Positions 17,958 through 54,769 of a stretch of 64,000 nucleotides of DNA are shown in pieces. The DNA comes from Chaetoceros tenuissimus (Eukaryota; Bacillariophyta; Thalassiosirophyceae; Chaetocerotales; Chaetocerotaceae). Within the stretch, counting starts at the first letter, position 1. Every line of letters starts with the position of its first letter. The translations under genes and the position numbers were made by a program. The stretch spans positions 1,054,001-1,118,000 of the forward strand of contig BLLK01000046.1 in the NCBI GenBank assembly GCA_021927905.1, in the 5' to 3' direction. Under the pieces are notes generated by a model, which saw only the letters and a list, made by a program, of their open reading frames with translations, had not been told where the DNA came from and made no database searches.

Positions 17958-17980
17958 ATTTTTCGATTTTTGTTTCTTTT

Positions 17981-22892: not shown

Positions 22893-22983
22893 TCCTGCTA
22901 GCGAGACTAGTCAGTGTTCTAATGTAGAAGAGATATGTCGGGATAGTGTTGATTAGAAGCACTATTAGTTTTGAGGAGCATCA

Positions 22984-23565: not shown

Positions 23566-25488
23566 TCAAAAAGTATGTCCTATAACTTTCTTGCTTCTCT
23601 CATCCTCTAACAAATCGAATAGCTCACCAATCTCTTCTTCTTGATTTTTTACCCACTTCTCCTTTTCCGATGCAGAGAGGTCTTTCACGTATGGATTTAC
23701 TAATAGACCCATTATGATTTCATCTGAATGCTGTAGGATATAATTCTGTCTTCTTTGTTGATATGACTCGCATTTCTTTCTCTCTTCTGATTGATTGTAA
23801 TTTGCTTTCATTGTATCCCTCAGTAAACTCGTTGCAACTATTTGCGGCTTATCGCTGAACCTCAGGAAAACATAAACTCCCAAATAATCTGACCTTCTAT
23901 TCTCTGCCCTGGCATCGACTTCTTCCCTAATATATTTGATATGTTCGTCAGAATAAAAGGTTTCACCTCCCCCCAAATCCTTGAAGAACCAATGACCAGC
24001 AGGTGCCTATATAAAAGCATATGGCAGACTCAGCAAAGCATTCTTTTATTTCTAAAAGTTGTAAATAGTCACAACAATCTCTCACCTTATCCTTTTCTCG
24101 ACTCCAGAAAATATCAGCTGGAAACACCTCAAACTCAGGAGGATTGCGTAGTGCTGGAGGAAGTGCAGGTGAACTTTGATTGGAAAAATCCAAGTCAAGT
24201 ACCAAATCACCTCCATCGTAGATCTTTCTCAACTTCTCGAGCATCTGGGGCTGATTTTCAAGCATGAATTTGTGTGCAATAGCTTCTTTGTTCTTGGTCT
24301 TAGCATGTGATGCATACTCTTTGCATCTCACTTTATGGTCTTTCCAATGAGCAACTTGGCACTCTCGAGAACAATCTTTTCAACATTCAATGGTTAGAGA
24401 AAATAGAAACATATAGAAATGAGTACAAAAGAGTGAGACTTACATCTGAAAAATTTGCAGTTTCCGCAAACAAGCAACTTTTGAGTCGAGTCTTGCATCC
24501 CGCATTTTGCGCATTCGATATTCTGCATCGATATGTATTTCTCGTCTGGATTCCCAGATGTAAGACCCATATCAAGAAACTTCTTCAATGCCCCTAGGAC
24601 CTCCATCATATGCTCATTCTCGGGGCATGGCTTGATCCGTCCTTCAAGAACATCAATAAGGGCATCACGAGAAGGTGACCCTGCTTTGAACATACTACTC
24701 AGACTGGCGGAACAGCTTGCTGCAGTGATGAAAAACAAACGTGCGAGATTTTTGAAATTATCTTGAAAATCATTCAGGACAGTAGGAGTCCAAGGTAGAT
24801 GAATGTAAAGTAGTACTTGCTCTAGCATCCCAGTCTTGTACATCATCATGAGTGCCTTGTCAATACCTGTTGTCTTATTCCCTCTAACATATTCGAAGCA
24901 TAGCATCATGGTTTGACACAAGAAATACCCAACGCCGCTATCTTGAGGAAGTATATGGGTTGCTTGTTTTGCAGCACTAGCGAGAGATTTCAAAAAGTCC
25001 CGAATGATAGCATGACTGGGAGAGAGAAACTTCAATACACTGCTAATCAGAAGCATTGCACTTTGAAGACATACCTCGTCAATCAGCGCACCTTTGTTTT
25101 CTCTTGAAATGGCATATTTCAGCAGAGACACGAAGTGATTGAAAAGGATGTTTAGCTCGGTATCAGTGACTACTTCTCGCAGCAAGTCCTTGGAAGCATT
25201 GGCGCAAATGCTTCCCATCGTGAAATAATAGCCATGCAAGATACCATTGCCTGTACATTCGACATCTTTCGCCTGCATTGTAATCTCGATCAACTTGAAG
25301 CGGTCTTCGATAGATTCTATCGGATTGTGAATGTACTGGTTGATACTGACCAAGAGCGTCGAGCTGAATAGCGGAAATTTCATCTGTTGCATTTGATGGA
25401 TGTAGGCATTTGCTTGTTTCTCTGTGCCCATAGTCATGAGGCCCTTTCCAGAGGCGGTCCTTGTATCGAGTAGTGACGGGTTCTTCAT
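23566..25488 (-). CDS. MYND zinc-finger protein, array copy E
   Basis: Exons 25488-24444, 24375-24086 and 24006-23566 (introns 68 and 79 bp) give 591 aa. MYND finger CAKCGMQDSTQKLLVCGNCK | YCSRECQVAHWKDHKVRC; linker LPPALRNPPEFEVFPADIFW; C-terminal APAGHWFFKDLGGGETF domain. Very close to D and C in exon 2. The C-terminal domain ends KKVIGHTF, like D (KKVIGHTI), showing D and E are recent sisters there. Start MKNPSLLDTRTA is the only sensible ATG. No intact reading-frame defect was seen. Confidence 0.84.
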
Positions 25489-25599
25489 TCCTACTAGCTA
25501 GCGAGACTGGTGAGTTCTATTGAAAGAGGAAGGTCTGTACAGTGTTGGTTAGAAGCACTTCCTAGTTTCTATTAGTATAGAGCATCCCTTTTGTTTTGC

Positions 25600-25701
25600 T
25601 GTCTGTCTATTCAAAATCTTTCCTTTTCATTGGAGTTCTGCAAAAAAGATGAGAGGGAGAAGAGGAGGAAAGAGGACCAAGAGAAGTCTTTGATTGACAT
25701 T
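25600..25701 (-). promoter_or_regulatory. Shared upstream module of copy E
   Basis: CTGTCTGTCTATTCAAAATC, TTTTCATTGGAGTTCTGC, AAAAGATGAGAGGGAGAAG and GAGGACCAAGAGAAGTC on the plus strand, 112-213 bp before the copy E start. It shares a longer match with the module of copy H (through GAGAAGTCTTTGATTGACAT). Confidence 0.55.
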
Positions 25702-26028
25702 TGATGATTGACAATGTTCAAATTACTTCTAGTCTAGCTTTATTTCAATGAATCTTACAGAGTTTGTTATAATCTTACAACTAATGGATACATTATATTT
25801 TGTAGATTGATGAGAGTATAAGCAATTGACGAAGAAATTCGTGCATGAGTAGAAGTATGAATCATTTTGCACGAGAGACTTTTGAAATAAAGAAAATCAA
25901 ATATTTCACTTTTATATCTCTGAAAGAGATAAAAATATTGTGAAAAAGATGAGGTAGCAATCTTGAGTTTACCAAGAAATGTGAATTACTTGATACGACG
26001 AACAAAAAAAGCATTCAAGTCCTTCATC

Positions 26029-27953
26029 CTAGATGATAATTTCATTTGAAATATCCTGTAGCATATCAAAAAAATTACCAAGGGAATTTTTGACGTGTTC
26101 CTGCTTCTCAGATGCAGAGAGATCTTTTCCTTCTGGATTTGTCAAGAGACTCATGAAATCTTTCACTACTGGATTTGGCAACTGACTCAACTGCGACTCA
26201 TCTGAAAATCTTTGGATAAACTTGGATCTTTCCTGTTGATACCGCTCACTCTTCCGTATCTCTTCCGATTCATTGTAGTTTTCTTTCATTGCTGCTCTTG
26301 GTATCACATTTTTATATATACCAGGGCTATCGCTGAGCTTCAGAAAAACAAATAAATTGAAATCATCTGGATCTACTTCAACGTCTTTCCTAACTTTGTT
26401 GATAAATCCATCTGAAAAACAGGTCGTCCCACCACCCAAGTCCTCGAAGAACCAATGACCGGCAGGTGCCTATCAGAATCAAAGAAGTGAGAATATCCCA
26501 GGTATAAACATAAAAAGCAGTACATATCAATGCATTCACCTTGTCCTTTTCTCTATTCCAAAAAATGTCAGCTGGAAATACCTCAAACTCAGGAGGATTA
26601 CGGAATGCTGGAGGAAGCTCAGGCGCGCAATCATTGGAAAAGTTCAAGTCAAGTACCAAATCACCTCCATCATAGCACTTTCTCATCGTTTCATAAATTG
26701 AGTTTCTATGTTCAGCGAGAAATTTCTCTGCAATAGCTTCACAATTTTCATTTTTACTTCTATTCTTCAATGACGACGTCCTCCTTTTGCAGGCATGTTT
26801 ATGGCGTTTCCAATCAGCAGCTTGGCACTCGCGAGAGCAATCTTTTTAGAGATGAGAGTTTTCACACAAAAATAATGCATACAAAAAGAAGAACAAATGA
26901 ATGAGACTTACATCTGACATATTTGCAACTCCCACAAACCAGCAACTTCTGGAGAAAGTCTTGCTTCCCACATTTCGCACATTCGATATTCTTCATTGAA
27001 ATAAACCGGTCATCTGGATTCCCAGATGTAAGACCCATGTCAAGAAACTTCTTCAAAGCCTCCAGAATCTCCATCACATGCTCATTCTCTGCACATGGCT
27101 TGATACGTCCTTCAAGAATGTCAACAAGAGCATCACGAGAAGGCGACCCTGCTTTGAAAACTTTACTAAGACTGATAGAAGAGCTTGCCATGGTAATGAA
27201 AAAGAGTCGGACACGTTCTTTACTGTCATTGTCATCGGCAATGGTCCAAGGAAGATGAATATGACGGAGTACTTGCTCCAACATACCAGTCTTGTGCATC
27301 ATCATGAATTTCTTTTCAACACTTGCTATCTTACTGGTACTGTTCTTGGTGACACTATATACGTAGCATTGTATCAAGGATTCACACAAGAAATACCCAA
27401 CACCGCTATCTTGGGCAGGTACAACAGTTGCTCGTTTAGCAGTACTAGCTAGAGATTTCAAATATTCCTGAATGATTTCATGACTGGGATTGAGAGATTC
27501 GAATAGTACGCTCACAAGAGCAACTGCTTCGTAAAGAAATTCCTCGTCAATGATTACACCTTTGTTCTCTCTTGATATGGCGTACTTCAGCATTTGTACA
27601 AAGTGGTTGAAAATGATACGCATCTCGGTATCAGTAACTGCTTCTTGCAACAATTCCTTGGAAGCTTTGGTGCAAATGTTTTTCATTGTGGAGTACAGGA
27701 CATGCAAGGTGCAACTGTCTCTTTCACCTACCTCGACATCTTTCAACTGTTCTGTAAGATCCAGCTTGAAGCGCTCTTCAACATATTCTCCTTGATTGTG
27801 AATATACTGGTTTATACTAACCAAGAGTTGCGTGCTGAAAGGCGGTTGTCCAGCCTTTTGCGTTATACGGAGGATATCATCTTCTTCGTTTCCATCTAGT
27901 ACGAGGCCCTTTTCAAGGTCAGTCTTTAGTTGGAGTGCCGTTGGATTGCTCAT
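26029..27953 (-). CDS. MYND zinc-finger protein, array copy F
   Basis: Exons 27953-26912, 26841-26540 and 26469-26029 (introns both 70 bp) give 594 aa. MYND finger CAKCGKQDFLQKLLVCGSCK | YCSRECQAADWKRHKHAC; exon 2 is 302 nt, four codons longer than in C-E, with a basic insert (KRRTSSLKNRSKNEN). Linker LPPAFRNPPEFEVFPADIFW, then APAGHWFFEDLGGG. The C-terminal domain contains a short internal near-repeat (NPVVKDFMSLLTNPEGKDLS), absent from other copies. Start MSNPTALQLKTD replaces the usual MKN. Its upstream DNA is the apparent source of (or derived from) the segment in front of copy B. Confidence 0.84.
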
Positions 27954-28051
27954 TCCTACAAGCGAGACTAATGAGGGAAAGTGGTCGGTATACTAGTAAT
28001 TTCTGTTTGAAGTTTCTTTGTGCATTGCTTTGATGTGTACAAAAAGGTACA

Positions 28052-28239
28052 AAATCTTTTCTTTTCATCATCGGAGTTGAAGTTCTACGAAAAAGATGAG
28101 AGAGGGAGAAGAAGAAGGGGAAAGAGGACCAAGATGATGTCAGCAAGAAGTTTGACTTCTTGCAAATCTATGCAAGAAGGTACGTGCGTCATTGTTCCTT
28201 TTGGAAAAAAATTATGAAAGATTCCATGATACTGAATGT
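28052..28239 (-). promoter_or_regulatory. Shared upstream module of copy F (twin of the one before B)
   Basis: 188 bp, 99-286 bp before the copy F start, holding the array module (purine tract, GAGGACCAAGATGATGTC) plus a downstream tract TTGACTTCTTGCAAATCTATG. Near-identical to 17762-17957. Confidence 0.7.
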
Positions 28240-28500
28240 TCTTACTTATATTTGATTTTTAATAGAGAGAAGAATGGAATAAAAAAATATTATCACGCAA
28301 AGGATAGAATGAGTCGACGAACCCATACGTGTGAATATGGACGTAGGAAGATTTTGAAAGTAAAAGTATTAGTAAACATTTTTGTTTTTTACTGTATCGC
28401 TGCTTTCTACTTTATATTATTGATGGATATTCCATAGCTGGTCACGATCTGCTCCCCTTCAAATATTTATAAACTATCTTCATCTATTCTTGGCGAGTAT

Positions 28501-30387
28501 TCAAGCCCAGTTTCCAATGACTGTTTTATTCAATGCATCGCATTGCAGATCATACATCATCCCTAGAAATTCTTCGAACTTTTTGGCATGTTTCTCCTTC
28601 TCGGAAGTAGAAAGATCTTTCAAGTCTGGACACTCTTTTAGAGCCATTGCGAGTTCTGAACGGATAAATTCCTGTCTTTTTTTTTGGTATGACACACTCT
28701 TCTTTCGCCAATCTGCATTACTCTTTGCTTCAAGTACATCTCTGGGAATTGCAATTACAGAGATAATTGGGTTATCGCTAAACAACATGAAAACGAATAC
28801 ATTGACAAGATTTTGATCTTTGCCTCGTCTACCAACTTCTTTTCTCATGTTTTTGATATATTCGTCGGGATAAAAGGTCTGACCTCCTCCCAAGTCCTCG
28901 AAGAACCAATGACCAGCAGGTGCCTTAATGCAAATAAAATAGACTCAGCAGATTGTTTCATTTATTAAATTCATAAATAATTGTAAAGAGCGCTCACCTT
29001 CTTCTTTTCTCGATTCCAGAAAATATCAGCTGGAAATACCTCAAACTCAGGAGGGTTGCGTAATGCTGGAGGAAGCGCAGGCGAACTTTGATTGGAAAAG
29101 TCCAGGTCAAGTACCAAATCATTACCATCGTAGATCTTTCTCGATTTCTCAACAACTTTGGACAGGTTCTCGCTAGAGAATTTCTGAGTAATGGCTTCTA
29201 AATTCTTGGTCTTGGCAGCTGATGTGTACCTTTTGCATGTCTGTTTATGGTCTTTCCAATCAGCAACTTGACACTCGCGTGAACAATCTTTTCAAGATTT
29301 AATGATTAGATAAACGAATACATACACAAATTATATACAAAAGAGTGAGACTTACATCCGAACAATTTGCATTTTCCGCAAACAAGCAAGTTTCGAGACT
29401 GGTCTACTTTTTTACACTTTGTACATTTGTGTCTCTGCATTGAAAAATATTTTTCATCTGGATTACCAGATGTAAGCCCCATATCCAGAAACTTTTTCAA
29501 AGCCTCTAAAATCTCCATCATATGCTCATTCTCTACACATGGCTTGATCCGTCCTTGGAGAATGTCAACAAGAGCATCGCGAGACGGTGACCCTGCTTTG
29601 AAAATACTGCATAGACTGGCGGAAGAGCTTGCTACAGTAATGAAGAAAAAACGCGTGATGTTTTTGAAATCATCTTGAAGAGGAGAGAAGTAGTCCAAGG
29701 TAGATGAATATGACGGAGTACTTGTTCCAGCATACCGGTCTTGTGCATCATCATGAGTGCCTTGTCATCACCTTTCTTTTTGATAGCAAAAATCAATGTG
29801 AAGCATTGTATCATGGAGTGGCATAAGAAGTACCCAACACCGCTATCATGAGGAGGTCCATCGGTTGCTTGTTTTGCAGTACTAGCTAGAGACTTCAAAA
29901 AGTCCTCAATGATATGGTGACTGGGATTGAGATCGAATACTTTCATCAAGAGAAGCATTGCTTCGTGAAGACATGCCTCGTCAATGATTACACCTTTGTT
30001 CTCTCTTGAAATGGCATACTTCAGCATTTGTACAAAGTGGTCGAAAAGGAATCGTAGCTCGGTATCGGTGACTACTTCTCGCAGCAAGTCAATGGAAGCA
30101 TTGTTGCAAATAGTTTTGATTGTGGTATACAAGCCATGCAAGATTCCTTGGCCTGCTTCGCCATCTTTCGCCTCTTCTGCAGTCTTGACCATCTGTACAG
30201 GCTCTTCAATAGATTCTTCCGGCTTATGAATGTACTGGTTGATACTGACCAGGAGCTTTGAGCTGAAAGGCGGTTGTGCATCCTTTTGCATTTGACGGAG
30301 GTATGCATTGGCTCCTTTTTGTGTTGCTACATTTACGAGCGCCCTATCAGGGGCGGTCCTTGTATAGAGTACTGATTCGTTCTTCAT
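28501..30387 (-). pseudogene. MYND zinc-finger gene, array copy G, frameshifted
   Basis: Exons 30387-29356, 29287-28998 and 28923-28501 with the usual introns (68 and 74 bp); exon 1 is broken. After LPWTTSLL (about 29680) seven bases are missing relative to copy D (CTCCTC-TT-CAAGAT where D has nine bases between the blocks), so the frame runs into a stop within about 15 codons, at 29632. Downstream the family sequence (DDFKNITRFFFITVASSS ... MYND first half CTKCKKVDQSRNLLVCGKCK) continues in the other frame, and exons 2 and 3 remain open and splice-competent. Only one lesion was found, so the loss is recent. The possible product would be the first 235 residues, lacking the finger. Confidence 0.75.
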
Positions 30388-30520
30388 TTCTATTGTCGAC
30401 ACTGATGAGCTCTATAGGTTTGGGACAGTTCAGTATAGTGATGATTAGAAGCACTACTAGTTTCCTATTGCATTGCATTATGAGTTGATAGAGCATCACC
30501 TCTCTCGTTGCTCTCGTTTG

Positions 30521-30610
30521 CTGTCTGTCTACTCAAAATCTTAATCTTTCCTTTTCATTGGAGTTCTGTAAAAAAGATGAGAGGGAGAAGAAGAGAGAAA
30601 AGGGACCAAG
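30521..30610 (-). promoter_or_regulatory. Shared upstream module of copy G
   Basis: CTGTCTGTCTACTCAAAATC, TTTCCTTTTCATTGGAGTTC, AAAAAGATGAGAGGGAGAAG and AAAAGGGACCAAG on the plus strand, 134-223 bp before the copy G start. Still intact although the gene is broken. Confidence 0.55.
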
Positions 30611-31003
30611 AAATTTCAAAATTGACATTGCAATTGACTTCATTGACATGATCAATATTTGCCTCTTTTTTTGAAAAGCTTCCACTCCATTTTCATTTTA
30701 GAAACAGAAGTAAGAAGTTTCTAAGAAATAATCTACACGAGAATGGACCAATTCGATTTAGGTTTGATCTATGAGGACCATCCTTTAAAATACGATCGCG
30801 TCTATGTGGCTATTCGTGTGCATGTGGAAAAGATGTCAAAGTTAAATTGGAAAATATATTTTTATTTCATGGCTCTAAAATGGATACTACTAGGTGATCC
30901 TAATTTATAATATTCAGTTTCTACTTGAAGTTTCTTCAACTACGTATCCTATTACAATTGGATTTCTCAATGGCATAACAGGTAGATTTATGCGTATTCA
31001 ACA

Positions 31004-32883
31004 TCAATTGTCTATAATTTTTTCGTGTAGCATATCCTGAATAGTATCATACAGCTTCCCAAACTCTTCGCGACGTTTTTTGACCCACTCCTCCTTCTCA
31101 GGTGCGGAGATATCTTTTACATCAGGATTTTCTGATAGACTCGCTGCAATTTGGTCTGAATACCGTTGGATGTAATTCAGTCTACCTTGCAGGTATGACT
31201 CACTTTTCCGTCTCTCTTCTATTTCGTTAAAATCAGGTTTCATTGCTACTTTTGAAACACTCACTGGATGTGCATATGGTACATCACTGAGCTTCATAAA
31301 GACATATAAGTCCAAATGACTCGTACGAGTAGATACATCACTTTTTGAATCTAATCCCCTCATTTTCTTGATATCTTCATCAGTAAAGTGGGTTCTACCT
31401 CCACCCAAGTCCTCGAAGAACCAATGACCAGCAGGTGCCTGAATAAAAATAAATAAGCATATTGTTTCATTTTGAAAAATACAATAATGGAACTCACCTT
31501 ATCCTTGTCTCTGTTCCAGAAAATGTCAGCTGGAAATACCTCAAACTCCGGAGGATTACGAAATGCTGGAGGAAGCGCAGGTGAGCTTTGATTGGAAAAG
31601 TTCAAGTCAAGTACCAGATCACCTCCATCATAGCACTTTCTCATTGCTTCATAAATTGAGTTTCTATGTTCAGTAACAAATTTCGTAACAATTGCTTCGC
31701 ATCTTCTACTATTTTTTGTCAACGTAGATGAGATGCTTTTGCAGGTCTGCTTATGGTCTTTCCAATCAGCAACTTGGCACTCTCGAGAACAATCTTTTCA
31801 AAGATTTACAATGTCGGATTAGAATGTTGTATATATATGTATATATTTGAAAAGGAGAAAATACTCACATCCAAAATGTTTGCAATTTCCGCAAAAAAGC
31901 AACTTTCGTGAATGGTCTACTTCTTTACACTTTGTACAGCAAAAGCTTGATCTTGAAATATATTTGTCGTCTGGATTACCTGAAGTAAGGCCCATATCAA
32001 GAAACTTCTTCAAAGCCTCTAGAATCTCTATCACATGCTCATTCTCTGCACATGGCTTGATACGTCCTTCAAGAATGTCAACAAGAGCATCACGAGAAGG
32101 CGACCCTGCTTTGAATATACTACTTAGACTGATGGTACAGCTTGCAATGGTAATGAAAAAGAATCGTATTCGGTTTTTCAACTCAGCTAAGATTTTATTG
32201 TTGTTGGCAATAGGAGTCCAAGGAAGATGAATATGACGGAGTACTTGCTCCAGTATTCCGGTCTTGTGCATCATCATGAGTGCCTTGTCGAAGTTTTTCT
32301 GATTCTTGAAGCATTCTATCATTGAGAAGCATAAAAAATACCCAACACCGCTATCGTGAGAAGGTACATCGGTTGCTTCTTTTGCAACACTAGCTAGAGA
32401 CTTCAAATAGCTCTGAATAGTACTATCTGTAATATTCTGATCTTTGATCAAATTGAATATCAAAATCATTACTTCATTTAGACACGCCTCGTCAATGATT
32501 ACACCTTTGTTCTCTCGTGAAATGGCACACTTCAGCAAAGATACCAAGTGGTTGAAAATGATGCGCAGCTCGGTATCAGTAACTACTTCGCACAGCAAGT
32601 CAATGGAAGCATTGGTGCAAATATTTCGCATCGAGAGGTACAAACCATACAAGATATTACTATCAATATTATCTCTATTCGTCTTTGAGCGCCAGCGCTC
32701 TTTGATAGATTCTTCCGGCTTGTGAATGTACTGGTTGATGGTAACCAAGAGTGTCGTGCTGAAAGGCGGTTGTCCATCTTTTCGTAGTTGACGGAGGTAT
32801 GCATTGGCTCCTTTCTGTGTTGCTACATTCACGGGGGGCCTTCCAGGGACGGTCGTTAGTTGGAGTACTGATTGGTTCTTCAT
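31004..32883 (-). CDS. MYND zinc-finger protein, array copy H
   Basis: Exons 32883-31869, 31793-31498 and 31438-31004 (introns 75 and 59 bp) give 581 aa. It is the outermost copy at the array's right edge. The frame is open to 33000 without an ATG, so MKNQSVLQLTTV at 32883, homologous to the start of C, is used. MYND finger CTKCKEVDHSRKLLFCGNCK | YCSRECQ ... HKQTC; linker LPPAFRNPPEFEVFPADIFW; C-terminal APAGHWFFEDLGGGRTHF domain. The first intron uses gtgagt instead of gtaagt. The segment after LPWT is the longest in the array (PIANNNKILAELKNRIRFFF). Confidence 0.84.
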
Positions 32884-33017
32884 TTTGCAGCTAGGTTGAC
32901 TGATGACTTCGTTACAATGGGGATAGTTTCGGTAGTGTGGATTGGAAGCACTTACTATGATATTTCCTTTTGCATTGCATTGTGAGTTGATAGAGCACAC
33001 CTCTCTCGTTCCTCGTT

Positions 33018-33110
33018 GCTGTCTGTCTACTCAAAATCTTTCCTTTTCATTGGAGTTCTTCGAAAAAGATGAGAGGGAGAAGAGGACCAAGAGAAGTCTT
33101 TGATTGACAT
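33018..33110 (-). promoter_or_regulatory. Shared upstream module of copy H; right edge of the array
   Basis: TGCTGTCTGTCTACTCAAAA, TTTTCATTGGAGTTCTTCG, AAAAGATGAGAGGGAGAAG and AGGACCAAGAGAAGTC on the plus strand. Similarity to copy E's upstream DNA continues patchily to about 33235 (CTGGATACATTATATTTT in both), beyond which array-type sequence ends. Confidence 0.55.
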
Positions 33111-36377: not shown

Positions 36378-38978
36378 ATGCAAATGAACTCAAGTAAAAG
36401 TAAAGAGTCCAAGAGGGCCACGCTGGCTCTAGGTTTTGTCTTAGGTGCTATATCTATGTTTCCCCAACAGGCTCAATGGTACGTTGAAAAGCATTTATTT
36501 TTCTAGATTCAGTAGATTCCAGAGAGCTGTTAGAGAAAATCTTTAACGCAGCTGTCACGCACCTTGATGCTATCAAAGAAATGATATCTTGGATCGAAAT
36601 AATAGCTATTTCCAGATAGCTAGTGAATATAAAAAGGGCAAATACTATTATATATACTTTGGAATGAATTACACATGTGTTCAAGAATGCCTTTGCCTAG
36701 AAATTGAATTCTATTTTGAATCTTGGATCTAACATATAATTTCCTTCCTATATACAGCTTCGTGAGCAATCCTCAAATACAACCATTGACTACACTACAT
36801 AGAAATTCACATTTATATTCATCAAAAGCATCATCCAGAAAGAAAGGACGTCGAAGAAACGCCAGTACCAAACATAGCAGTAGCAATGAAGAATCCAATT
36901 CACATTTCGACATAGAACATGCAGCAATGTCTCGTCAACAATTAAAGATACGAAACTCGGAAAGTGGCAATTCTATCCATATTCCATCGCCACATCAAGA
37001 TGCGCATCAACATCATTCACATCATCAGAACCCAATGTCGAAGTTATTATCGCATATAATACCACCCCAAGATCAATCCAAGAAACTTATTTCATCCTCT
37101 ACTGAATGGAAAAAGTTAGTCAAACATGCCGAATATATCGAAGGAACCCATTTACGTGATCTCTTACAGGATCAAGAACGAAGTGATGAGATGTTTGCAC
37201 AGCATGATGGAGTCTACCTTGATTATTCAAGACAAAGAGTTACTCTCGAGACTATGGACTTACTTTTCGATTTGGCGGAGAAACAGAAACTAGAAGAAAA
37301 GATTGATGCAATGGTCTCTGGAAAAAAGATTAATTGGACAGAGGACAGAGCTGTACTTCATACTGCTTTGAGAGCCGAGAGAAAGAAAGAACAAACTGTA
37401 AAGAAAGAAATCATTGTTGATGGTGATGACGTTTTGGACGAGGTATGGGATGTTTTGGATCAGATTAAATACTTTACCGAAGCTGTGAGATCTGGTGAAA
37501 TTAGAGGATTCACTGGAAAGAGACTCAGAAATATCATTTCAGTTGGTATCGGTGGAAGTTACCTTGGACCTGAGTTTTTACACGAGTGCCTCAAAACTGA
37601 ACCAGAAGGTATCAACAAGAGTTTGGGATACACTTTGCGATTCTTGAGCAATGTTGATCCTGTAGATGTAGAAAGAGCTTGTGCTGATCTTGATCCTGAA
37701 GAAACACTCGTGGTTGTTGTGAGTAAAACATTTACAACCGCTGAAACAATGTTGAATGCAAGAACAACACGACAATGGCTTTGGGACTTTATGGGAGATG
37801 GTAAAGAAGTTGTTAGAAAACACATGGTTGCTGTCTCCTCTATTTCTAGCAAGGAAAGGGTAGAGGACTTTGGAATTGATACTGAAAAATACTTCTTTAG
37901 ATTCTGGGATTGGGTAGGAGGAAGATACAGTGTATGTAGTGCTGTAGGAGGTATCCCCATTAGTCTTCTCTATGGATTTGACTTGTTTGAAAAGTTTTTG
38001 TTGGTAAGTTCATCTCATATTTCATGATAAGGTTTTCTTTATATTTCTGCTAATTTGACGGTTTTTTTCGTATAGGGCGCAAGATCCATAGATAAACACT
38101 TCACTGAGGCTCCACTTCGACAGAACATCCCAGTATTGATGGGTTTATTAGGAGTTTGGAATATGTCATTTTTGGGTTATAACTCACGCACAACTCTTCC
38201 ATATGCAGAAGCATTATTAAAATTACCAGCCCATATCCAGCAACTTGACATGGAATCCAATGGAAAGAAAGCGACAATTCATGGAGTTCCAGTAGATTAT
38301 CCTGTGGGAGAAGTTGATTTTGGAGAACCAGGAACAAATGGCCAGCATTCATTCTTCCAACTTCTGCACATGGGGCAAACAGTTCCATGTGAATTCATAG
38401 GCTTTCTCAAGAGTCAACATGATTTGTGCATCGATGGTGAACCTCTTTCATCTCATGATGAACTTATGGCAAACTTCTTTGCTCAACCAGATGCACTTGC
38501 AAATGGAAAAACACCCGAAGAAGTATTGGCAGAAGGAGTTGATGAGGATCTAGTGCTTCATCGCACATTTGAAGGCAATCGCCCTAGTCTATCATTGCTA
38601 GCTCCAAAACTAACAGCTTACTCATGTGGACAACTACTGGCAATATACGAACACAGAACAGCTGTCCAAGGGTTCATATGGGATATCAATTCATTTGACC
38701 AATGGGGTGTTGAGCTTGGTAAGAAGCTTGCATGTGATGTAAAAGATCACCTACTAGATGCTAGGAAAAATGGGAGCAAAATAAAGGCTGGCAACCCTGC
38801 CACCTCCCGCATACTTAATTACTATGTCGAAAACAGCAATCAAGCCATAGGAGAGGACCTATGGGACTCTAATCCGCTGACGAGTGTCACTCGTAAAACA
38901 CACCATGAACATCATGAGAGGGAAATTCTCCCACCTGTCGGACACGATTTAAAGGGTGCTGATGGGAAATTACAATAG
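36378..38978 (+). CDS. GPI: Glucose-6-phosphate isomerase, plastid-targeted, three exons
   Basis: Interconverts glucose-6-phosphate and fructose-6-phosphate. The catalytic frame opens at 36723 with no usable ATG; a first exon at 36378-36478 joins at gtacgt...tatacag to exons 36758-38003 and 38076-38978, giving 749 aa. Exon 1 encodes a signal peptide ([19 protein letters not shown]) and the junction makes AQC-FVSNPQ, Phe after the cleavage site, the diatom plastid signal. Family signatures: [59 protein letters not shown], and [15 protein letters not shown] with the catalytic Lys. The enzyme is longer than the usual 550 aa because of a polar, His-rich linker (residues 35-140, with [12 protein letters not shown] at about 112-123) and a tail containing HHEHHE. 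It probably serves plastid carbohydrate metabolism. Confidence 0.87.
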
Positions 38979-40269: not shown

Positions 40270-43200
40270 ATGAGTTCAGGAGAGGAACCTGTGGCACTGA
40301 GTGGATCCAAAAGAAAGGCCGAAGATGCCAAGCTTGGTGACAGTACGCTTTCAAACACTAAGAAGCAAAACAGTCAAGAAAGAGATGCTATAAACCCCAA
40401 GTCTCCACTTCTACGCATCGCATCATATGATGACAATGAGCTGCATGGAAATCCAAGAGGTTCACTCTTTTATCAATCTGGATCACCTAGTACAGCTGTA
40501 TTAGAGAGTCATAAATTGAATAACAATCCCTCCAACAAGAAGGTCACTTTTGACAAGGGGACCAATCTGGACCGAAAGGCTAAGCCACACCCCATCTCAC
40601 ACGATCCTAGTGTTGAGTTTGTGCTAAAGAGAGATGAAGATGATGACCTATCCTCGGAAGACGATATGCCTTCAGATTCCAACTATGAGAACGAGATTGT
40701 TGACGATGATGAAGGAAATCATGATGGCTCTACCATGAATATTCGTGGAAATCAAGTAAACGTTACCAATATCAAGACTCATGTCAAGAGAAACATGAAT
40801 GTCGACGCAGTTATTGAAAATGTAGATGCTGTCTATAAGAAGGTTGGGATTTGGGCTGTTGTTGTCTGGTTGAGTATGAGTGCTATCACCTATTGCCTCG
40901 CAATCTATACGGGAAACATGGAAACTTTGGTTGGTATCGAGAAAAAAGCACCGTTAGTTGCTGCTACTCTAATTGGAACTTCGGCTGTTGGGACTATTTT
41001 GCCTCTCTTTATCAAGGGGAAATTGCAGTCCGTTTCAGGGGTAATTTGCTGTGCTATTGTGGTTCATTTTATTGCCTTCTTTACAGATCTAGCCATGGGT
41101 TGCTTTCCAACTCCAGTCTTTGTTGACCCAATATGTGGTGTGAGAATATATCTCCTTCGCTGGTGTGAATGGACTCCTCTAGCGTTTGTCATGACATTTC
41201 TTACTGAAGCATGCAGAAATGAAAAGGAGGGCAAAAATGTACAGGATCATATTAGCGCCAGAAGATTGACTACTATGTTACGAGCAGTGCAAGGATTAGA
41301 AGATACCAGCCCTGCCAGAACCACCTCTGTAGGTGATTTAATGGAAGAAACAGGGCAAATGAATGCTACTCAAGAGACCTTGTATCCGGCATATGTACTT
41401 GCTATATGCCAAGGACTGTCTACTTTCTGTGGCTGGCTGTTTCCATTTTGTTATAATCTTTGGACATGGAACATCAATATGCTGATTTCTTGTCTATTAT
41501 ATTTTGTGATGTTTTACCGCCTTCATCATAGATCGAAATCTTTTGCATCAATGGTGGAGGGTGTTACAATTGCAGAGCAGGAACTTTATCATTGGTCAAG
41601 ACTTTCATTGACTTTGTTGAAATCTTGTACTGCTATGTGGACTATTTTGGTAGTTGCATACTTTATCTATACATGCGGTCCATTCTTCTACCCAGATTCT
41701 TGGATGAATTGTACAGGATTTGGAATGATTTGTGAAAGTATCATTGATGTTCTTTTCAAGTCTCTATACATGCTCATTATCGTTGATGTTCACGATAATA
41801 TATTCGATAGAAGTGCCAGAGCAGGTAAGATAGAGTTGGTGTCTTTGCTGCGGAACTTTCCTTCGAACTTTTATTTTGGTCTACTAACTTTTGATTGTAT
41901 GTCACTCGTTAGAACGCAGATTGGAGGAGCTCAGACAGATGATGGGAGTCGTGTGTAAGTGGACGATGCCGTAGAGTAGAGTAGTAGATGTTCTTGAAAT
42001 GAATATTTGTATTTTGGCTAAATCAGGTCATTTAGCCAATACTCTTATCAGAATATCTTTTCTTTTTTAATGCATCCCTCATCACTTCTTTGCACTAATT
42101 AATTGTTTACGAAATAGGGGACAATTCCAGTGATGTTATTTGTATTTCAGTAAGAGCAGCGAATGGAGATGTTACCACTATGCTCAGTCCTACATATCTT
42201 AAAATTTATTCCTCGTCAAAGAAGGCCGATGCAATTGCTTTTGAGCTTGAAAAGTCATGTTTCGATGAATATTCAAGGCTACAAGATGATTACGACGAAG
42301 TTCGTATGTCAAGTTGCTTGAAACCAAAAACTTTTTACCATGTGAAATTTGGTGACTTGGTACAACGTAAACAACATATCAGAGGACAGAATTTTATAAA
42401 AGATGAAGAGATAGGGTCAATGGCACATCTCATCTTGAGAGCGTGGAATGCGAAGGAGGATGAGACCTTACTTATGCACGAGCTACTGCGATCAAAAAAG
42501 ACTACTGATAGATTTTCTATAAGATGTGAAGCTAATATCACGAGAATGGAACAAAATGCTATCCTTGTTGTTGTAAGAGACATTTCAGAGAGGTTTCGAC
42601 GTTTCGAGGCAGAGAAAAAAGTTATCAGTGAAACAACAGCGAGACTGAAAGATGCAGCTGCGAACAGATTCACAAGACATGAGGTTAAAAATGGGCTTTT
42701 AGCTGCAATTGGTCTCTGTGATAGTCTTCGAGAGTCGATTGTACACGATGGGAAAGTACAGGCTGATCAGTTTAATCTCATCAAGAAAATCGTTGATCCA
42801 AATGATGGGTGCCCTACTGATCCGCTGAACCTATCGCGTTATTTGTTCGAACTCGACAAAACTCTTCATGAGATTTTGGACACAATCCTAGCAGAAGCAA
42901 TGGCTAGAGATGTCATTCATGAAGTTTACGAAGCAAAGCTGGAGAGAGTTGACTTGCCAAAATTGCTATACAGTACAATGAATTTAACTTCGAGAAGTCA
43001 GAGTATGAAGAGATTCCCTATCACAACCTATCCAGATCCTCTTCCTGAATACGCAATGGACATTCAGTTGTTAAAATACATTCATCGTAATGCTATCAGT
43101 AATGCATGTAAATACGGAAAGCGTGGTGGCCAAGTAAAGACAGATGTCACATGGGATAAAGAACAAGGCATTCTCAAGATGGAAGTTATTAATTTACCCG

Positions 43201-44355
43201 GACAAGGACACGAGGAAATTCTCAAACTTGGAGACATTGCAAATGAGATTGTCTTCTCTCCTCGACGACGTCTAACGATGCATTCTATGTTGGACAGCGA
43301 GACTAGAGAGAGTCCCTCACACTCATCCGGAGGTAAGTCTTGATGTTTTAGAAAAGGTTGCTTGCTTTTTATACTGTGCTTCAACTAAAGAAATCAATTT
43401 GTTAATAGATGGAGCTTGGATCATGCACAAATGCGCCAAAACTTTGGGGGGAAGTTGTGGTATTAAGTTTGAGATAGATAAGACTGTATTCTCTTTCCAG
43501 TGTCCAGTAACACCATATCATGATATGCTAGCAATGTCCAACGTATCTCATGAAGAATTTGTAATGCCAAACAATGTTTGGGGAATAGCTCTAGATGATT
43601 CAAAGATTCAAAGAAAACTATTGGTTCGTTTCTTTTTATATGCTGGAATTCCCGAGGACAGAATCCATATTAAGGGTTCTTCTGCAGAAGATGTAAAGAA
43701 CTTTGACAATTGGGCTGTGAACTTTGTCGACAACCATCCAAATGACTTTTTCCTCATGATTATCGATGAAAACTTGGATATCCAAGAGGAGCAAGATGCT
43801 ACTAGACAAGTCACTATTTCAGGTTCCCGTGCTATTTCAGAGATGAGATCAAGACTCTTACCAGATCAAGAGAGACGAGTTTTGGCACTGATTCGTTCTG
43901 CGAACGATAGTGCAAGTGATGTTGCAATTTACAACTCAAGAGCACATGGTTTCCTTCCAAAGGCTCCAATTAAAAAGGATTCTGTACGAGAGGTTCTTGT
44001 TCCAATGTGGTTCAAGCGCTTTCCTAAATTCGAAAGTGTTCGTTCGTACTCTGCAGAAGGCCCTGTCACTATCGATGATGCAGGAGTAGAAGAAGTAATC
44101 ACAATGTCTGATTTGATTCCTTGTATCAATGACATTGATAAATTGGCTGCACTTGGCCATGACGAATTACATGAAAAATGGAGTATTGTATGGGAGAAGT
44201 TACATGCACTCAAGGGAGATCTGCTAATCATGCAAAGACACAAAGCCATTGATCAAGCTATTGGGATGATTTCAAGGCTGAGGGGGCCTATTCCACCTGA
44301 GAATTTCTTCAACAAGTGGCAAAACATCAGGTCAACATTGCTAATGGTTTCATAA
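40270..44355 (+). CDS. Eight-helix sensor histidine kinase with PAS, receiver and HPt domains; rhodopsin-like helices
   Basis: Exons 40270-41954, 42131-43332 and 43409-44355 (introns 176 and 76 bp) join in frame to 1277 aa. A 190-residue acidic cytoplasmic N-terminus precedes about eight hydrophobic helices (near 192, 227, 254, 291, 371, 400, 447 and 482). Helix 4 has R297-W-C-E300-W, like helix C of microbial rhodopsins; helix 8 has D493-V-L-F-K497, like the retinal-lysine motif DxxxK of helix G. Eight helices with a long cytosolic N-terminus is the plan of enzyme-rhodopsins. A PAS-like region follows (to about 725), then the H-box RHEVKNGLLA (His745), the N-box HRNAISNACKYG, a receiver with Asp1082 (IIDENLD) and GFLPKAP, and an HPt motif LHALKGD (His1228). 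So a full His-Asp-His relay lies in one chain. The retinal-binding claim is inference; the kinase domains are clear. The second exon's acceptor at 42130 is the only one keeping frame with the canonical donor. Confidence 0.8.
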
Positions 44356-47771: not shown

Positions 47772-49493
47772 TTATGTTTTTCGAAGATACTCTATAATTT
47801 CATTAGAACTTTTATGCTCAGTTGGTATTTCATTAAATTCACCATCGAGACCATCTCCATGGAAACAATACGCATATGTTTCCTTTGTCCATGGGCATTT
47901 GTTCTCATGTGCATACACTAGTATATCAAAGCGATTTGTCTTCACAGCCGCATTACACACTCCTTCATCCCAAGGACAATTGTGATACCTCAGCCAGCGA
48001 AGAACTTTCAATTTACCATAGATTGCAGCTTCAGTACAGACTCTTGCATTCCATTCATATCCATTGGAACGAAGAAGCTTCAATATTGGAATTGGATCTT
48101 TGCATGTAACGGCGCTCGGATACACACGTTGACCAAAAGGGCACTCATTTTCAATGCAATACTGAATGGTTGTCATATCATTGGATTCAATTGCACATTC
48201 AAAAGCGCATTCATTCCAGGGACAACCCTGAGATCTGATCCATTTCAGAGCCTCAAGGTTTCCTGAACATATAGCAACCTCGCACGTTACCTCATTCCAA
48301 GGTATATTGAATTTCCTGAGTAACTTGAGTACTTTCAAATCTTTTACATAATCTGAATTAGTCAAAGGTGATAAATCGTTGTCTACAATAGGACAATCGT
48401 TTTCAAGGCAATACTTGACAACATCAATATGGCCGTATTGTACTGCTTCTTCGATAGTACGGTGATCCCAAGGACAGCCATGTGTTCTTGCGTAGATTAA
48501 TGCGTCAAGAATGCCTCTTCTAGCAGCAAATCTACATGTCTTTTCATCCCAAGGGACGCTTTGTTGACGTAGCCACTTGAATATCTCCATTACTTTTTCT
48601 TTCTCAAGTCTTCGTACTGCTTCTTTGAAAGCGTGCGATGTAAATACGCATCCATTGTCATGAAGATATTGAAGAAGCTCCAAATTTCCGCTTCTTACGG
48701 CATAAAAGCTAGTTCTAGTATTCCAAGAAATATCTTGATTTCGAAACCATTTCACTAACTCTAGATTCCCACTAGTTGCTGCATGATTGATGTAAGTGTC
48801 TTTATTGAATGCATACTCAGCATCTATGCCCCATTTGATTATATTCAAATGACCACCTTCAGCCGCAAACTGAAACAATATATCTTCAAGTCTAAAAATA
48901 TTCTCTTTCATTTGGTGTAACCATCTTAGGATATCCAAGTGCCCATGAAGCGCGGATTCTTTAATAATATGATAAAGCCAAAGCCAAGATGAAATGTTCA
49001 ACCCCTTTTCTTTCAGAAGAACCAACATATCCAAGTCTCCCTTCTTTGTAATTTCCTCTATAACATACTGACAGATCCAGTCATTTATATCTACCCCAGA
49101 GATCTGTGCTGCCATTGTCACGATATCTTGTCTTCCATTCCTTGATGCCATTCGAAAGAGCTTCTCCTGAAACCTATCTGGTGCATTTAGAAAACAATGC
49201 TCTGCTAGCACTAAAGAAGATGAAGCAGCATCCACTGTGGTCACCTTGTTTCGATCGACTGCCAGCAAAAAATCCAACTTGTGTGCGTATTTATCTTCGA
49301 TGATATCCATTGTAACATAGTTGTAGCAAAAGTCTTTTGAAACTGGGCAAATGAAGCAGAAGTTACCTTTGCCAACGTAAGTAAAGATGGAATTCATTAC
49401 TTCAGGTGGGAGGGCATTCATCGTTGCAGATGGAACTTCTTCAACCATGGCGCTTGCGCCTTGTTCAAGTCTAATTCTTTTGTTTGAAAACAT
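47772..49493 (-). CDS. Ankyrin-repeat protein with F-box-like N-terminus (copy 1)
   Basis: 573 aa. An F-box-like motif lies at about residues 26-65 (LPPEVMNSIFTYVGKGNFCF, then PVSKDFCYNYV), so the protein may be a ubiquitin-ligase substrate adaptor. The remainder, about residues 100-560, is a run of ankyrin-type helix pairs of the diatom CPW form (for example ARTHGCPWDHRTIEEAVQYG, WIRSQGCPWNECAFECAI, LRYHNCPWDEGVCNAAV). The paralogue at 60156-61922 is the same gene in the opposite direction, with highly similar beginning and end. The intervening 12 kb has other genes. Start ATG 49493 (MFSNKRIRLEQG) is the first in frame. Target unknown. Confidence 0.8.
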   Translation of the reverse strand: MFSNKRIRLEQGASAMVEEVPSATMNALPPEVMNSIFTYVGKGNFCFICPVSKDFCYNYVTMDIIEDKYAHKLDFLLAVDRNKVTTVDAASSSLVLAEHCFLNAPDRFQEKLFRMASRNGRQDIVTMAAQISGVDINDWICQYVIEEITKKGDLDMLVLLKEKGLNISSWLWLYHIIKESALHGHLDILRWLHQMKENIFRLEDILFQFAAEGGHLNIIKWGIDAEYAFNKDTYINHAATSGNLELVKWFRNQDISWNTRTSFYAVRSGNLELLQYLHDNGCVFTSHAFKEAVRRLEKEKVMEIFKWLRQQSVPWDEKTCRFAARRGILDALIYARTHGCPWDHRTIEEAVQYGHIDVVKYCLENDCPIVDNDLSPLTNSDYVKDLKVLKLLRKFNIPWNEVTCEVAICSGNLEALKWIRSQGCPWNECAFECAIESNDMTTIQYCIENECPFGQRVYPSAVTCKDPIPILKLLRSNGYEWNARVCTEAAIYGKLKVLRWLRYHNCPWDEGVCNAAVKTNRFDILVYAHENKCPWTKETYAYCFHGDGLDGEFNEIPTEHKSSNEIIEYLRKT

Positions 49494-49807
49494 TGTGCTT
49501 ATTAATTAAAAATGAATAAGTATGAATTCTGTGTTGCTATCATCTGTATTAGAAAAATAAACAAGATTGTTATTTCGATCATTGGGAAAAGATGTCTTTT
49601 GACTGATCGAAGTGACCAATGATGACTGAATTGAACACGCTAATAGAAGCAAGATTTTAAGATGGGACTGAAAATTCAACATAAGAAATAAAAAATTTGT
49701 ATTGAAGCTTCAGTTTACAACATGCTACAATCCAGTTCACGTCAATTAGGATCATCATGCCTTCATTATAGCTTCTTCCACGCCAAAATTATGAACCAAT
49801 AAAAAAG
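49494..49807. other. Intergenic
   Basis: 314 bp between two minus-strand genes, containing the ankyrin gene's promoter. Nothing recognised. Confidence 0.2.
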
Positions 49808-51434: not shown

Positions 51435-54400
51435 ATGAGATTTATAGCGGCTACATGGCTGCTGCTGACTAGCACAAATGGGTTCAATATGCCATCCATC
51501 ATTCCACGTAATGCACTTCGATCAAATACTTTCTTGTGTTCTACTGAAGTATCACTGTCTGAAATGGAAGACGATATCGAACGCAAACTGGATGCTGAAG
51601 AAAAGCTACAAAGTCTTCAGCATACTTTTCGCGCCCCATCTAAAAATCAGCAATCGTCACAAACTTTTGAAAATCAAGAAAAAACTTTTGAAGCAGAAGA
51701 TAATGAAGCTAGAGAAAGACAACGGACTATCAAGAAAATATTGGATGAAGATGATGCGAAATGGAAAGAAGAGCGTAAGAAAAAGATTCTAGGAAAGTAT
51801 GCTGACGCCAAGGATGAATCTGAAATTAAAAGGATTCGAGAGGAGGAAGATAGAAAGATTGAAGAGGAAAATGCAAAAAAGGCATCTGTGGCTCAAACTT
51901 CTGGAGTTTCGCTTGAGATTCTCGAAAAGGAGTTTGTTCCTGAAGAAGAATCGAATTTTAAACCATCGAATGTCAAGGGTAAATCTGGTCAATCATGGTT
52001 TGATGGAGATGCTGAAATAGATGAGAATCTTCTTGGAGAAGAAGGACCTAGGATAGTCAATGGAAAGTTGATTGATCGAAAAGAGCAACAAGGTGTAAGA
52101 GTTGGTAGTGCGGGAGGATGGACTTTGGAAGTATTTCCAGGCGATTTTGTAGTACATAGAAAATATGGTATTGGTAGGTTTGATAAGGCCATTCTTAAGC
52201 CGAAAAAGAAATTGACCAAAGTAGAGAAGGAAGCGAGAGCTATTCGTAGAAATGAGATTGTGAAGGGTATGATTAAGGATAGACAAAACTCTACTGCAAT
52301 TGAACAAGTCGTTGCGAACTTTGGTACTGACAAAGATGAAGATCCGATTTCAAATCCTCAGCAAACTGTATTGGAAGTTTCATATAGTGATGCGAAAGTT
52401 CATATCCCAGTCGACAAGGCATATCGTTTAAGTAGATACAGAGCTGGAGATGCTGTAGTGAAACCAAGATTGTCAAGAGTGAAGGGAGAAGCTTGGAACA
52501 AAGCAAAAAGAAAGGTAGAAGAAGATACGATACAAATGGCACAAGATGTACTTGCATTGTATGCGACTCGTGAAACTCTTTCGCGAACTCCATTCGATCC
52601 ATCAAAAGAAGGTATGTACTCGTTTATACTGAAACTATGACTTTTCTTTTTGCCATCGATATCTCACAGAGCTATGTGAAATAACCCAAAGTAAAAATGG
52701 CTGAATTTGGAAAAACATTTGCGTTTGAACCTACTCCTGACCAAAAGAAATGCTTCGAAGCGATTGAGAATGACATGGTTTGGAGAAGCCGTCCGATGGA
52801 TCGTCTAGTTTGTGGAGATGTTGGTTTTGGTAAGACAGAAGTAGCTCTCAGAGCTATTGTCCGTTGTGTGGCAAATGGGAGACAGGCTGCGCTACTCTCT
52901 CCTACAGGAGTTTTAGCAGCACAGCATATGAGGACGGTTGTAAAAAGAATGGGGGCTGATACTGACTTTAATTTTAATATTGCCATGTTGAGAGGAGGAA
53001 TGGGAAAAAATACCAAAGTCGGAAGAGAAATCCGTGAACAGATCTCAGAAGGAAAGATTGACATTATTATTGGAACACACGCTTTGCTCTCTTCTGGTAT
53101 GAACTTCAAGGATCTTGGTCTATTGGTAGTAGACGAAGAACAACGTTTTGGAGTGAAGCAAAAGGAGAGACTGAAGCTTATTTGCAATGGAATTGATGTT
53201 CTAACTTTGTCTGCAACACCTATTCCACGTACCCTACAGATGTCTCTTAGTGGGATCAGAGATACTTCTACAATTCGTTCGCCTCCACCAATGAGAAAGC
53301 CAACAATCACATATGTACAAGAATACAACAAGGATCTAATCAAGGAAGCACTACAAAGAGAATTTGACAGAGGAGGACAATGTTATTTTGTCGTTCCTCG
53401 TATTGCACAATTAGAAGAGGCAGAAAAGGTAATGAGAGAGCTGTTCCCTGACATCAGAATTATTCAGGCGCATGGAAGAATGGCTAGAGGAGGTGCAGAA
53501 GAAAATGTTGCTGCTTTTGCTGAAGGAAACTATGATGTGCTTCTCGCAACAACTGTTATTGAGAATGGAGTTGATATTCCAAGTGTGAATACCATCATTG
53601 TCAATAATGCCCAGGCCTTTGGTATGTCTACCCTCTATCAGCTCCGTGGTCGTGTTGGACGTTCCAATTTACAAGGGTATGCATACTTATTGCACAAAGA
53701 GGATGCAATCACAGAGCAGTCTGCAATGCGTCTCCAAGCGATGGCGGATCTACATGAACTAGGATCTGGTTTTGATGTTGCAAATCGTGATCTTGAAATT
53801 CGTGGTGCAGGTTCGCTACTAGGAACTGAGCAGTCGGGTATGGCAGCAAAGGTTGGATTTGATCTATACATGCGAATGTTGAAGAAATCGATCAGGCAAC
53901 TTCGTGGTTTGGATATTCCGATGGTTCCTCGAACAAACGTGTTGCTTCCAGGCGCAGAGGGAAGTTTAGAAGTTGGTGAAGACTCTGAAGGCAAGAGTGT
54001 AAATGCATTCAAGATTACAAAGAAATATATCCCTGATGACAAGGAACGATTCCAGCAAGAGGGTGCTGCTCGTCTTGCAGAGAGTACTGATCAACTTGTT
54101 GAGATTACCAACAAGTGGAAGGACACTTATGGCCCAATTCCTGCTCGTGTTCAATCTAAGTTGAAGACATTGCACCTTCATGCATGTACAAGAACATTAG
54201 GTATTGACCTCGTTGGTTTTGTAGATAATGGTGATGGAACAAAGGACTGTGTACTTAGATCACCAGGATTGAGACCAAGACACTGGGTATACATTTCCCA
54301 ATTCTTACCAAGAAAGGTGCCAACAAAGGGTATAGACGCAGTTTTTCCACCTCGATTCGCCAAGACTGATGTCGACTTTGTTTTGAAGGGTGGAAAGAAG

Positions 54401-54769
54401 GTAGATTTGACTATATTACAAGAAAGTCAAGATGACGAGGATGAAGAATGGGATGCATTGGACGAAGAAGAGGTTGAAGCAATGAAAGAAATTTCATCTG
54501 CCATGTTTGTGAAGGATATCAATGAGGTAGATATTGAGGACTATCCTCGATTTGTTGTAAGAAATATGAGTAGTATAAAGAAGGGATCTCGAGTCGATAT
54601 GCTATTGAAGTTACTGCTACCAGCATCAAAGGTTGTTCATGCGAAACAAACTGCAGATAAGGAAAAGGCAAAAGTAGCTGCAGAAATAAGGGAAAAGAGA
54701 GAAGCTATCCAGAAGCAAAAGAAAGAGCAAGAGAAACTAGCATCCAAGAGACTAGGATATAACTTTTAA
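51435..54769 (+). CDS. Transcription-repair coupling factor (Mfd-type helicase), probably plastid-targeted
   Basis: Exons 51435-52611 and 52692-54769 (80-bp intron, acceptor CAAAG) give 1084 aa. The splice restores the plant Mfd-like stretch KMAEFGKTFAFEPTPDQ. Mfd uses ATP to push stalled RNA polymerase off damaged DNA. Parts: signal peptide MRFIAATWLLLTSTNG with FNMPS, consistent with plastid targeting; a charged, coiled-coil N-terminal third; an RNA-polymerase-interacting, CarD-like domain (GDFVVHRKYGIGRF); superfamily 2 helicase motifs GDVGFGKT (Walker A), VVDEEQRFG (DEEQ), LTLSATPIPRT and YQLRGRVGR; and a TRCF-like C-terminal domain (DVFVL-type, MSSIKKGSRVDMLLKLLL). The UvrB-homology N-terminal domains of bacterial Mfd are not visible; plant plastid forms also lack them. 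The tail is Lys/Glu-rich. Function in a diatom plastid is inference. Confidence 0.85.

Follow-up and report, generated by a model that had tools for sequence, protein, structure and literature searches.

According to the accessible part of PMC6284317, the green-algal enzyme rhodopsins known as 2c-Cyclops are phosphorylated in the dark, which keeps their cyclase active, and are inhibited by light; mutation of the opsin lysine abolished the inhibition by light, and activity was low in mutants unable to use ATP or to transfer phosphate. In rhodopsin phosphodiesterase (RhPDE), E164 in its protonated form makes a hydrogen bond to the counter-ion D292, and W165 is among the residues around the retinal (PMC7644710, accessible part). 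The tandem rhodopsin of bestrhodopsin is described in PMC12291454, in the portion open to us, and diatom homologues of ethylene receptors, CHASE proteins and phytochromes are mentioned in the accessible text of a review on eukaryotic kinases from 2019 (PMC6944256). Here we describe a gene of the diatom Chaetoceros tenuissimus, located at positions 40270-44355 (plus strand) of a 64,000-nucleotide stretch of contig BLLK01000046.1, hereafter the window. Its predicted product is probably an eight-transmembrane (8-TM) enzyme rhodopsin of the histidine-kinase type, which would bind retinal and be gated by light. By sequence comparison, its membrane part is, among solved structures, nearest to the tandem rhodopsins of bestrhodopsin, in helices B-C.

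Type-1 rhodopsins carry R-x-x-[DE]-W in helix C and D-x-x-x-K in helix G. Hydropathy analysis of the predicted protein showed a polar N-terminus of about 185 residues and, after residue 189, eight hydrophobic segments, the fourth of which is weak (peak mean hydropathy 1.14, barely over the threshold). The preliminary description of this locus had proposed a long N-terminus before about eight helices, R297-W-C-E300-W (297-301) in the fourth helix and D493-V-L-F-K497 (493-497) in the eighth, and all three proposals held. If the first segment is the TM0 of enzyme rhodopsins, the fourth and eighth segments are helices C and G. When the residues of helices 4 and 8 were shuffled 200000 times in a post-hoc test, R[WY]x[DE]W arose in 0.1% of shuffles and DxxxK in 10%; the two occurred together in 0.008%. 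The elements of the membrane domain are as follows.

40837-40908, plus strand: TM1, residues 190-213, the proposed TM0, found by hydropathy and aligned with TM0 of RhPDE 7cj3
41029-41214, plus strand: TM3-TM4, residues 254-315, the proposed helices B-C with R297, E300 and W301, matched by 7pl9 and RhPDE
41167-41169, plus strand: E300, the proposed helix-C acid adjoining the Schiff base, aligned with RhPDE E164
41215-41376, plus strand: C-D loop of about 54 residues, from the alignment with prokaryotic rhodopsins
41596-41682, plus strand: TM7, the proposed helix F, containing W457, from hydropathy and from hidden Markov model (HMM) and MAFFT alignments
41722-41799, plus strand: TM8, the proposed helix G, residues 485-510 with D493 and K497, from hydropathy and from HMM and MAFFT alignments
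41758-41760, plus strand: K497, the proposed retinal Schiff-base lysine, from its register in HMM and MAFFT alignments; alone not significant

Three sub-segments were searched against 177635 PDB sequences: residues 262-319, covering helices B-C (phmmer), helix G, and helices F-G. For B-C, the top match was 7pl9, named 'Rhodopsin', with an E-value of 1.1e-4 for the chain, both tandem copies aligned and a best domain i-E of 0.028; the other two of the three matches had E 0.53 and 1.8. The entry 7pl9 is bestrhodopsin, which also has a bestrophin part. The ungapped alignment contains 22 identities in 64 positions and places RWCEWT opposite RYMEWT. Against the first 7pl9 copy the Smith-Waterman score was 88, which none of 3000 shuffles preserving the own residues of each helix and loop attained (mean 27.8, standard deviation 4.3, maximum 63). 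The second copy scored 58 (0/3000 shuffles as high) and RhPDE 57 (8/3000); for helix C, channelrhodopsin-2 (ChR2) gave 41 (77/3000) and bacteriorhodopsin (BR) 32 (760/3000). None of 109 decoys, multi-TM open reading frames (ORFs) from fetched loci and from the window, reached 88, and the best of them, at 46, is by its motif a rhodopsin fragment. Since a set of 38 other rhodopsins, 37 of them prokaryotic plus ChR2, scored at most 53 against the 7pl9 B-C segment, the region described here is nearer to bestrhodopsin than those rhodopsins are. Homology of the membrane domain to rhodopsins in helices B-C is thus well supported by sequence.

A profile of this protein and two 7pl9 pieces also retrieves 7pl9 itself, which is circular; its next PDB matches were the RhPDE constructs 7cj3, at E 0.058, and 7d7q, at E 0.092, whose alignments run on from TM0 as far as R-Y-A-E-W in helix C, and the last two, at E 0.24 and 1.5, were unrelated. 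E300 and W301 come to lie opposite RhPDE E164 and W165, where adding 31 to the chain position is our deduced conversion to the numbering of PMC7644710. The two RhPDE matches are individually not significant, yet both are 8-TM enzyme rhodopsins. As in that class, the predicted protein combines eight segments, a kinase behind TM8 and a first segment aligned with RhPDE TM0 (E 0.058), in an orientation that we infer. A further profile, A4, retrieved 88 PDB matches, of which the best 60 are all named rhodopsins with the exception of two phosphodiesterase constructs and 6gyh, an algal rhodopsin labeled 'GPCR-like'; this search is circular because A4 includes an RhPDE piece that Pfam recognizes unaided.

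These matches bear on the alternative that an unrelated eight-helix sensor domain carries rhodopsin motifs by coincidence. We regard it as very improbable, because the identities to a solved rhodopsin fall exactly at the predicted helices, at a level that no shuffle reproduced, and because the next match is a second 8-TM rhodopsin. It would agree with the lack of a Pfam family, of a significant whole-domain match and of a usable unbiased structure.

The whole-domain profile tests, built on prokaryotic rhodopsins and ChR2, did not reach significance. The best part of the HMM of 38 rhodopsins scored 5.1 bits (18/2000 shuffles as good), and in two collinear stretches it matched RWCEW with RYADW, W457 with the helix-F Trp and D493/K497 with the Asp and Lys. 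In anchored position-specific scoring matrices (PSSMs), E300 ranked first and K497 and W457 each second among 331-339 positions, with scores matched by 0.2-0.7% of shuffles per stretch. MAFFT alignment with 35 prokaryotic rhodopsins placed K497, W457 and W301 in invariant columns; with BR and ChR2 only, R297, W301, D493 and K497 stayed in register and W457 did not. TM0 was omitted from the final MAFFT alignment, in which helix D is laid over the C-D loop, because MAFFT otherwise placed TM0 on helix A. Alignments of A/C and D/G fragments were discarded, their A-C rows being misplaced. Helix F had been said to match poorly; W457 meets the helix-F Trp in two alignments but not in the three-sequence one, and the F-G similarity is not significant. 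A helix-G lysine with Asp at -4, in register in the HMM and MAFFT alignments, is thus found in TM8 at the residue level. Judged by motif, order and register, K497 as the Schiff-base lysine is well placed but not statistically proven.

Several results weigh against this reading. The whole 335-residue membrane domain matched no rhodopsin in the PDB, and neither did helix G (best match a ribosomal protein at 1.6) or helices F-G (best match a PQQ-synthesis protein at 0.21) among the 177635 sequences; helices F-G of ChR2 and BR aligned to this protein at chance level, as judged by shuffles. The rhodopsin HMM gave -1.6 bits for the full domain, with 1005/2000 shuffles as good or better, and -3.8 bits for the part with helices F-G. 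PSSM scores were negative throughout, and with the key residues fixed P was 0.27 for helix C, 0.12 for G and 0.028 for F, so that the remainder of C and G adds little. The C-D loop, at about 54 residues, far exceeds the length found in the prokaryotic rhodopsins used for comparison, and a Pro lies two residues past W301, not five. Among the decoys, one without a rhodopsin motif (L036) equaled the second-copy score and one that is by motif a rhodopsin fragment (L072) equaled the RhPDE score (1/109 each). PF01036 did not match the membrane domain at E up to 10, and the B-C segment alone drew from Pfam an antenna-complex family at 0.052 and nothing else. Single-sequence AlphaFold, finally, yielded a poor model (predicted local distance difference test, pLDDT, 43.9) with no rhodopsin in the 12 Foldseek rows listed.

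The confinement of the strong similarity to B-C, the non-significant F-G, the long C-D loop and the displaced helix-C Pro would also suit an opsin-derived sensor kinase without retinal, in which the 8-TM rhodopsin fold is kept, the pocket now serves another ligand or membrane signals, and the presence of the Lys is incidental. We consider this unlikely, given that the Lys, the Asp at -4, the Arg and Glu of helix C and the two Trp residues are retained in order. Furthermore, helix F of the solved RhPDE scores only -0.5 bits against ChR2 in our control, and weak F-G similarity therefore occurs between solved rhodopsins. Taken together, the rhodopsin-type membrane domain of the preliminary description is well supported for helices B-C, and the order of its eight helices, with the two signature sites in place, fits enzyme rhodopsins; for helices F-G the similarity does not reach significance.

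The earlier account had also taken a missing PF01036 match as grounds to abandon a rhodopsin, and such a match is indeed missing, with exon 1 and its membrane domain returning no Pfam family at all at E up to 10. As a control, a 127-residue RhPDE piece matched PF01036 at E 7.7e-22, whereas bestrhodopsin pieces of 64 and 69 residues gave E 0.035 and no match; these are pieces only, and whole domains could score higher. Because short bestrhodopsin pieces are barely detected either, the silence of PF01036 here means little for the bestrhodopsin branch. The same comparison answers the concern, raised early on, about the helix-C Pro: it does lie only two residues past W301, but the bestrhodopsin sequence RYMEWTIDACGL, from a solved structure, likewise has no Pro five residues past the Trp. 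A more specific placement, namely a diatom (stramenopile) histidine-kinase rhodopsin of the bestrhodopsin branch with a non-canonical helix C, possibly long-wavelength, bistable photochemistry and a His-Asp-His relay, is conceivable, and we put it forward tentatively; the photochemistry is suggested because helix C is bestrhodopsin-like and non-canonical.

When AlphaFold was supplied with the 35-rhodopsin alignment, pLDDT rose to 70.4 with a predicted template modeling score (pTM) of 0.63. The best 12 Foldseek rows for this model comprised 10 microbial rhodopsins and 2 G-protein-coupled receptors, with sensory rhodopsin II (E 0.012) in first place, a result biased by the input alignment; no Foldseek match reached 0.001 or better. 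We give this model little weight, since its alignment biases it.

Open frames of 568, 414 and 359 residues cover the locus. The exon model was chosen from enumerated GT-AG combinations, which allow many open solutions, the 1277-residue three-exon chain assumed at first being one of them. That chain splices 41955-42130 and reads through an 88-nt intron at 41825-41912 (donor GTAAGA, acceptor TTAG), and we have replaced it. Splicing 41825-41912 yields DRSARAERRLEELRQMMGVVWDN..., a helix-like linker leading into the kinase, and, because the intron is 88 nt long, alters the downstream frame. We adopted a four-exon model because the spliced frame carries TM8 on into RSARAERRLEELRQMMGVVWDNSSDVICISV and because donor and acceptor match the consensus. 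Intron 3 is supported by HATPase_c, which improves from E 0.062 with exon 3 alone to 4.3e-4 with exons 3 and 4 joined. The gene is real and, as read from splice signals and protein sense, has four exons encoding 1252 residues.

40270-41824, plus strand: exon 1, an open frame with ATG and donor GTAAGA, encoding the polar N-terminus of about 185 residues and the entire eight-helix membrane domain (residues 1-518)
41825-41912, plus strand: intron 1, 88 nt, GTAAGA...TTAG, whose removal gives the helix-like linker RSARAERRLEELRQMM
41913-41954, plus strand: exon 2, the linker helix joining TM8 to the PAS-like region
42118-43332, plus strand: exon 3, with the PAS-like region, H-box (H720), N-box and G1 box VINLPGQG
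43409-44355, plus strand: exon 4, with the G2 box, receiver-like stretch (D1057), HPt-like motif (H1203) and stop
42678-42680, plus strand: H720, the proposed autophosphorylated His, in RHEVKNGLL
43765-43767, plus strand: D1057, the proposed receiver phospho-acceptor, in MIIDENL, with D1000/D1001, S1101 and K1122
44203-44205, plus strand: H1203, the proposed HPt His, in LHALKGD

Once intron 1 is spliced, His745, Asp1082 and His1228 of the 1277-residue chain become H720, D1057 and H1203, and K497 and E300 are unchanged; the H-box, N-box, receiver and HPt motifs first proposed are thus present, at shifted positions. HATPase_c matched across the exon 3/4 junction (E 4.3e-4, 21.1 bits, below the 26.4-bit gathering cut-off), and NCBIfam histidine kinase models matched down to 8.3e-7, all far below their curated cut-offs. 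Histidine kinase homology is therefore fair at the sequence level. The PAS-like region is weakly backed by a PAS-histidine kinase NCBIfam model (0.0012, far below cut-off). The N-box reads NAISNACKYG, and a G2-like Gly-rich stretch reads SSGDGAWIMHK. A receiver profile of 42 sequences scored 3.5 bits (7/2000 shuffles as good), the aligned part lying only after D1057, and an HPt profile of 16 rows with two identical pairs among them, which superseded a two-sequence profile, scored a weak 1.5 bits (51/2000). Pfam found no REC and no Hpt match in this protein, and no PDB sequence was matched by exon 3 searched on its own (up to E 1) or by the receiver on its own (up to E 10). The receiver and HPt assignments thus rest mainly on motifs. 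As in the histidine-kinase rhodopsins (HKRs), an opsin-like domain, a histidine kinase below curated cut-offs and a receiver assigned by motif residues and a weak profile appear to follow one another in one chain.

A canonical G1 box reads D-x-G-x-G. Here VINLPGQG (43185-43208, plus strand) has Leu892 at the usual Asp position, which also counts against the proposed function and may point to an ATP-binding site of an unusual kind or to a pseudokinase. The relay that had been called complete therefore retains its H-box, N-box, receiver-like and HPt-like motifs and lacks the G1-box Asp. This residue, together with the HATPase_c score below cut-off and the failure of Pfam to detect REC and HPt, fits a degenerate, non-catalytic kinase that would serve as a light-dependent scaffold or as a phosphatase/REC-HPt hub, an option compatible with the rhodopsin reading. 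We think it somewhat unlikely, as the H-box His, the N-box Asn residues and the G2-like stretch are present and the receiver-like stretch retains D1000/D1001, D1057, S1101 and K1122.

For an enzyme rhodopsin with an active kinase, the following mechanism can be proposed. TM1 would be the extra helix TM0 and TM2-TM8 the rhodopsin helices A-G. Retinal would form a Schiff base with K497 of helix G, next to an acid pair of D493 and E300, with W301 and W457 lining the chromophore. Photoisomerization would shift the helix bundle, and the movement would travel along an unbroken linker helix (residues ~511-530) to reach the PAS-like region and the dimeric kinase. Autophosphorylation of H720 would be altered by light, and the phosphate would pass to D1057, then to H1203 and then to soluble response regulators. 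By natural inference, light would affect H720, D1057 and H1203; for the sign of this effect, the light-inhibited 2c-Cyclops offer a precedent.

If this reading is true, a major group of marine phytoplankton would possess a retinal-based signaling receptor separate from the diatom xanthorhodopsin pumps (PMC10627834, accessible part), and the bestrhodopsin branch would be tied to an enzyme output. Diatom light sensors named in the accessible portions of the cited literature include phytochromes, aureochromes and a cryptochrome, to which a rhodopsin signaling receptor would add. Further such receptors may sit unannotated, because the standard rhodopsin profile can seemingly miss this branch. A single-chain light-controlled phosphorelay could also serve as a new optogenetic scaffold.

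The window contains other genes. Eight consecutive ORFs of 259-403 residues at 14073-33030 (minus strand) look alike by eye, with starts spaced 2.2-2.8 kb; most end in a Cys-rich stretch (e.g., CAKCGKQDxxxKLLVCGxCK) reminiscent of a MYND-type zinc finger, and the two of the eight that were scanned had no Pfam match at 0.01. Two ankyrin-repeat proteins that look similar are encoded in opposite orientation at 47772-49505 (minus strand) and 60126-61922 (plus strand), with about 10.6 kb between them. A signal peptide peptidase with a PA domain (Peptidase_A22B, 9.5e-68) is encoded at 3625-5733 (minus strand). The product of 52685-54769 (plus strand) is a DEAD/DEAH helicase that carries a TRCF domain (2.1e-5), like bacterial transcription-repair coupling factor, and is possibly organelle-targeted. 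At 36720-38978 (plus strand), the first ORF, which was scanned, encodes a phosphoglucose isomerase lengthened considerably at its N-terminus, and a second ORF continues it, apparently past an intron.

No paralogue of the kinase gene was found within the 64-kb window. Searches of viral contigs found no relatives of the exon 1 membrane part, of exon 3, of exon 4 or of the alignment of this protein with 7pl9, and rhodopsin queries found none there either; a scan of genome contigs served to gather rhodopsins for comparison. Among the matches listed, literature titles and abstract openings named no diatom histidine-kinase rhodopsin; subscription journals were mostly outside this scope, so an earlier description is possible.

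Compared with bestrhodopsin (7pl9), the protein shares the B-C segment (22/64, ungapped), the pattern Y-x-x-R-[YW]-x-E-W-T and the absence of Pro at +5 from the Trp. Bestrhodopsin, however, fuses two rhodopsins to a channel, whereas here one rhodopsin-like domain, with no significant match in helices D-G, precedes a kinase relay; the remainder of the protein matched kinases and no channel family in Pfam or NCBIfam. With SrRhPDE (7cj3, 7d7q) it shares eight helices including TM0, the correspondence of E300/W301 to E164/W165 and cytoplasmic N- and C-termini, which are known from structure in RhPDE and expected by analogy here. Unlike this protein, SrRhPDE has a phosphodiesterase effector and an N-terminal piece that is a clear PF01036 member (7.7e-22). 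The green-algal HKR1/Cop5 and 2c-Cyclop proteins, compared by description and not by sequence, have the same order of an 8-TM opsin, a histidine kinase and a receiver, but continue into a guanylyl cyclase (PMC6284317, accessible part), whereas the diatom protein has a PAS-like stretch ahead of the kinase and an HPt-like end.

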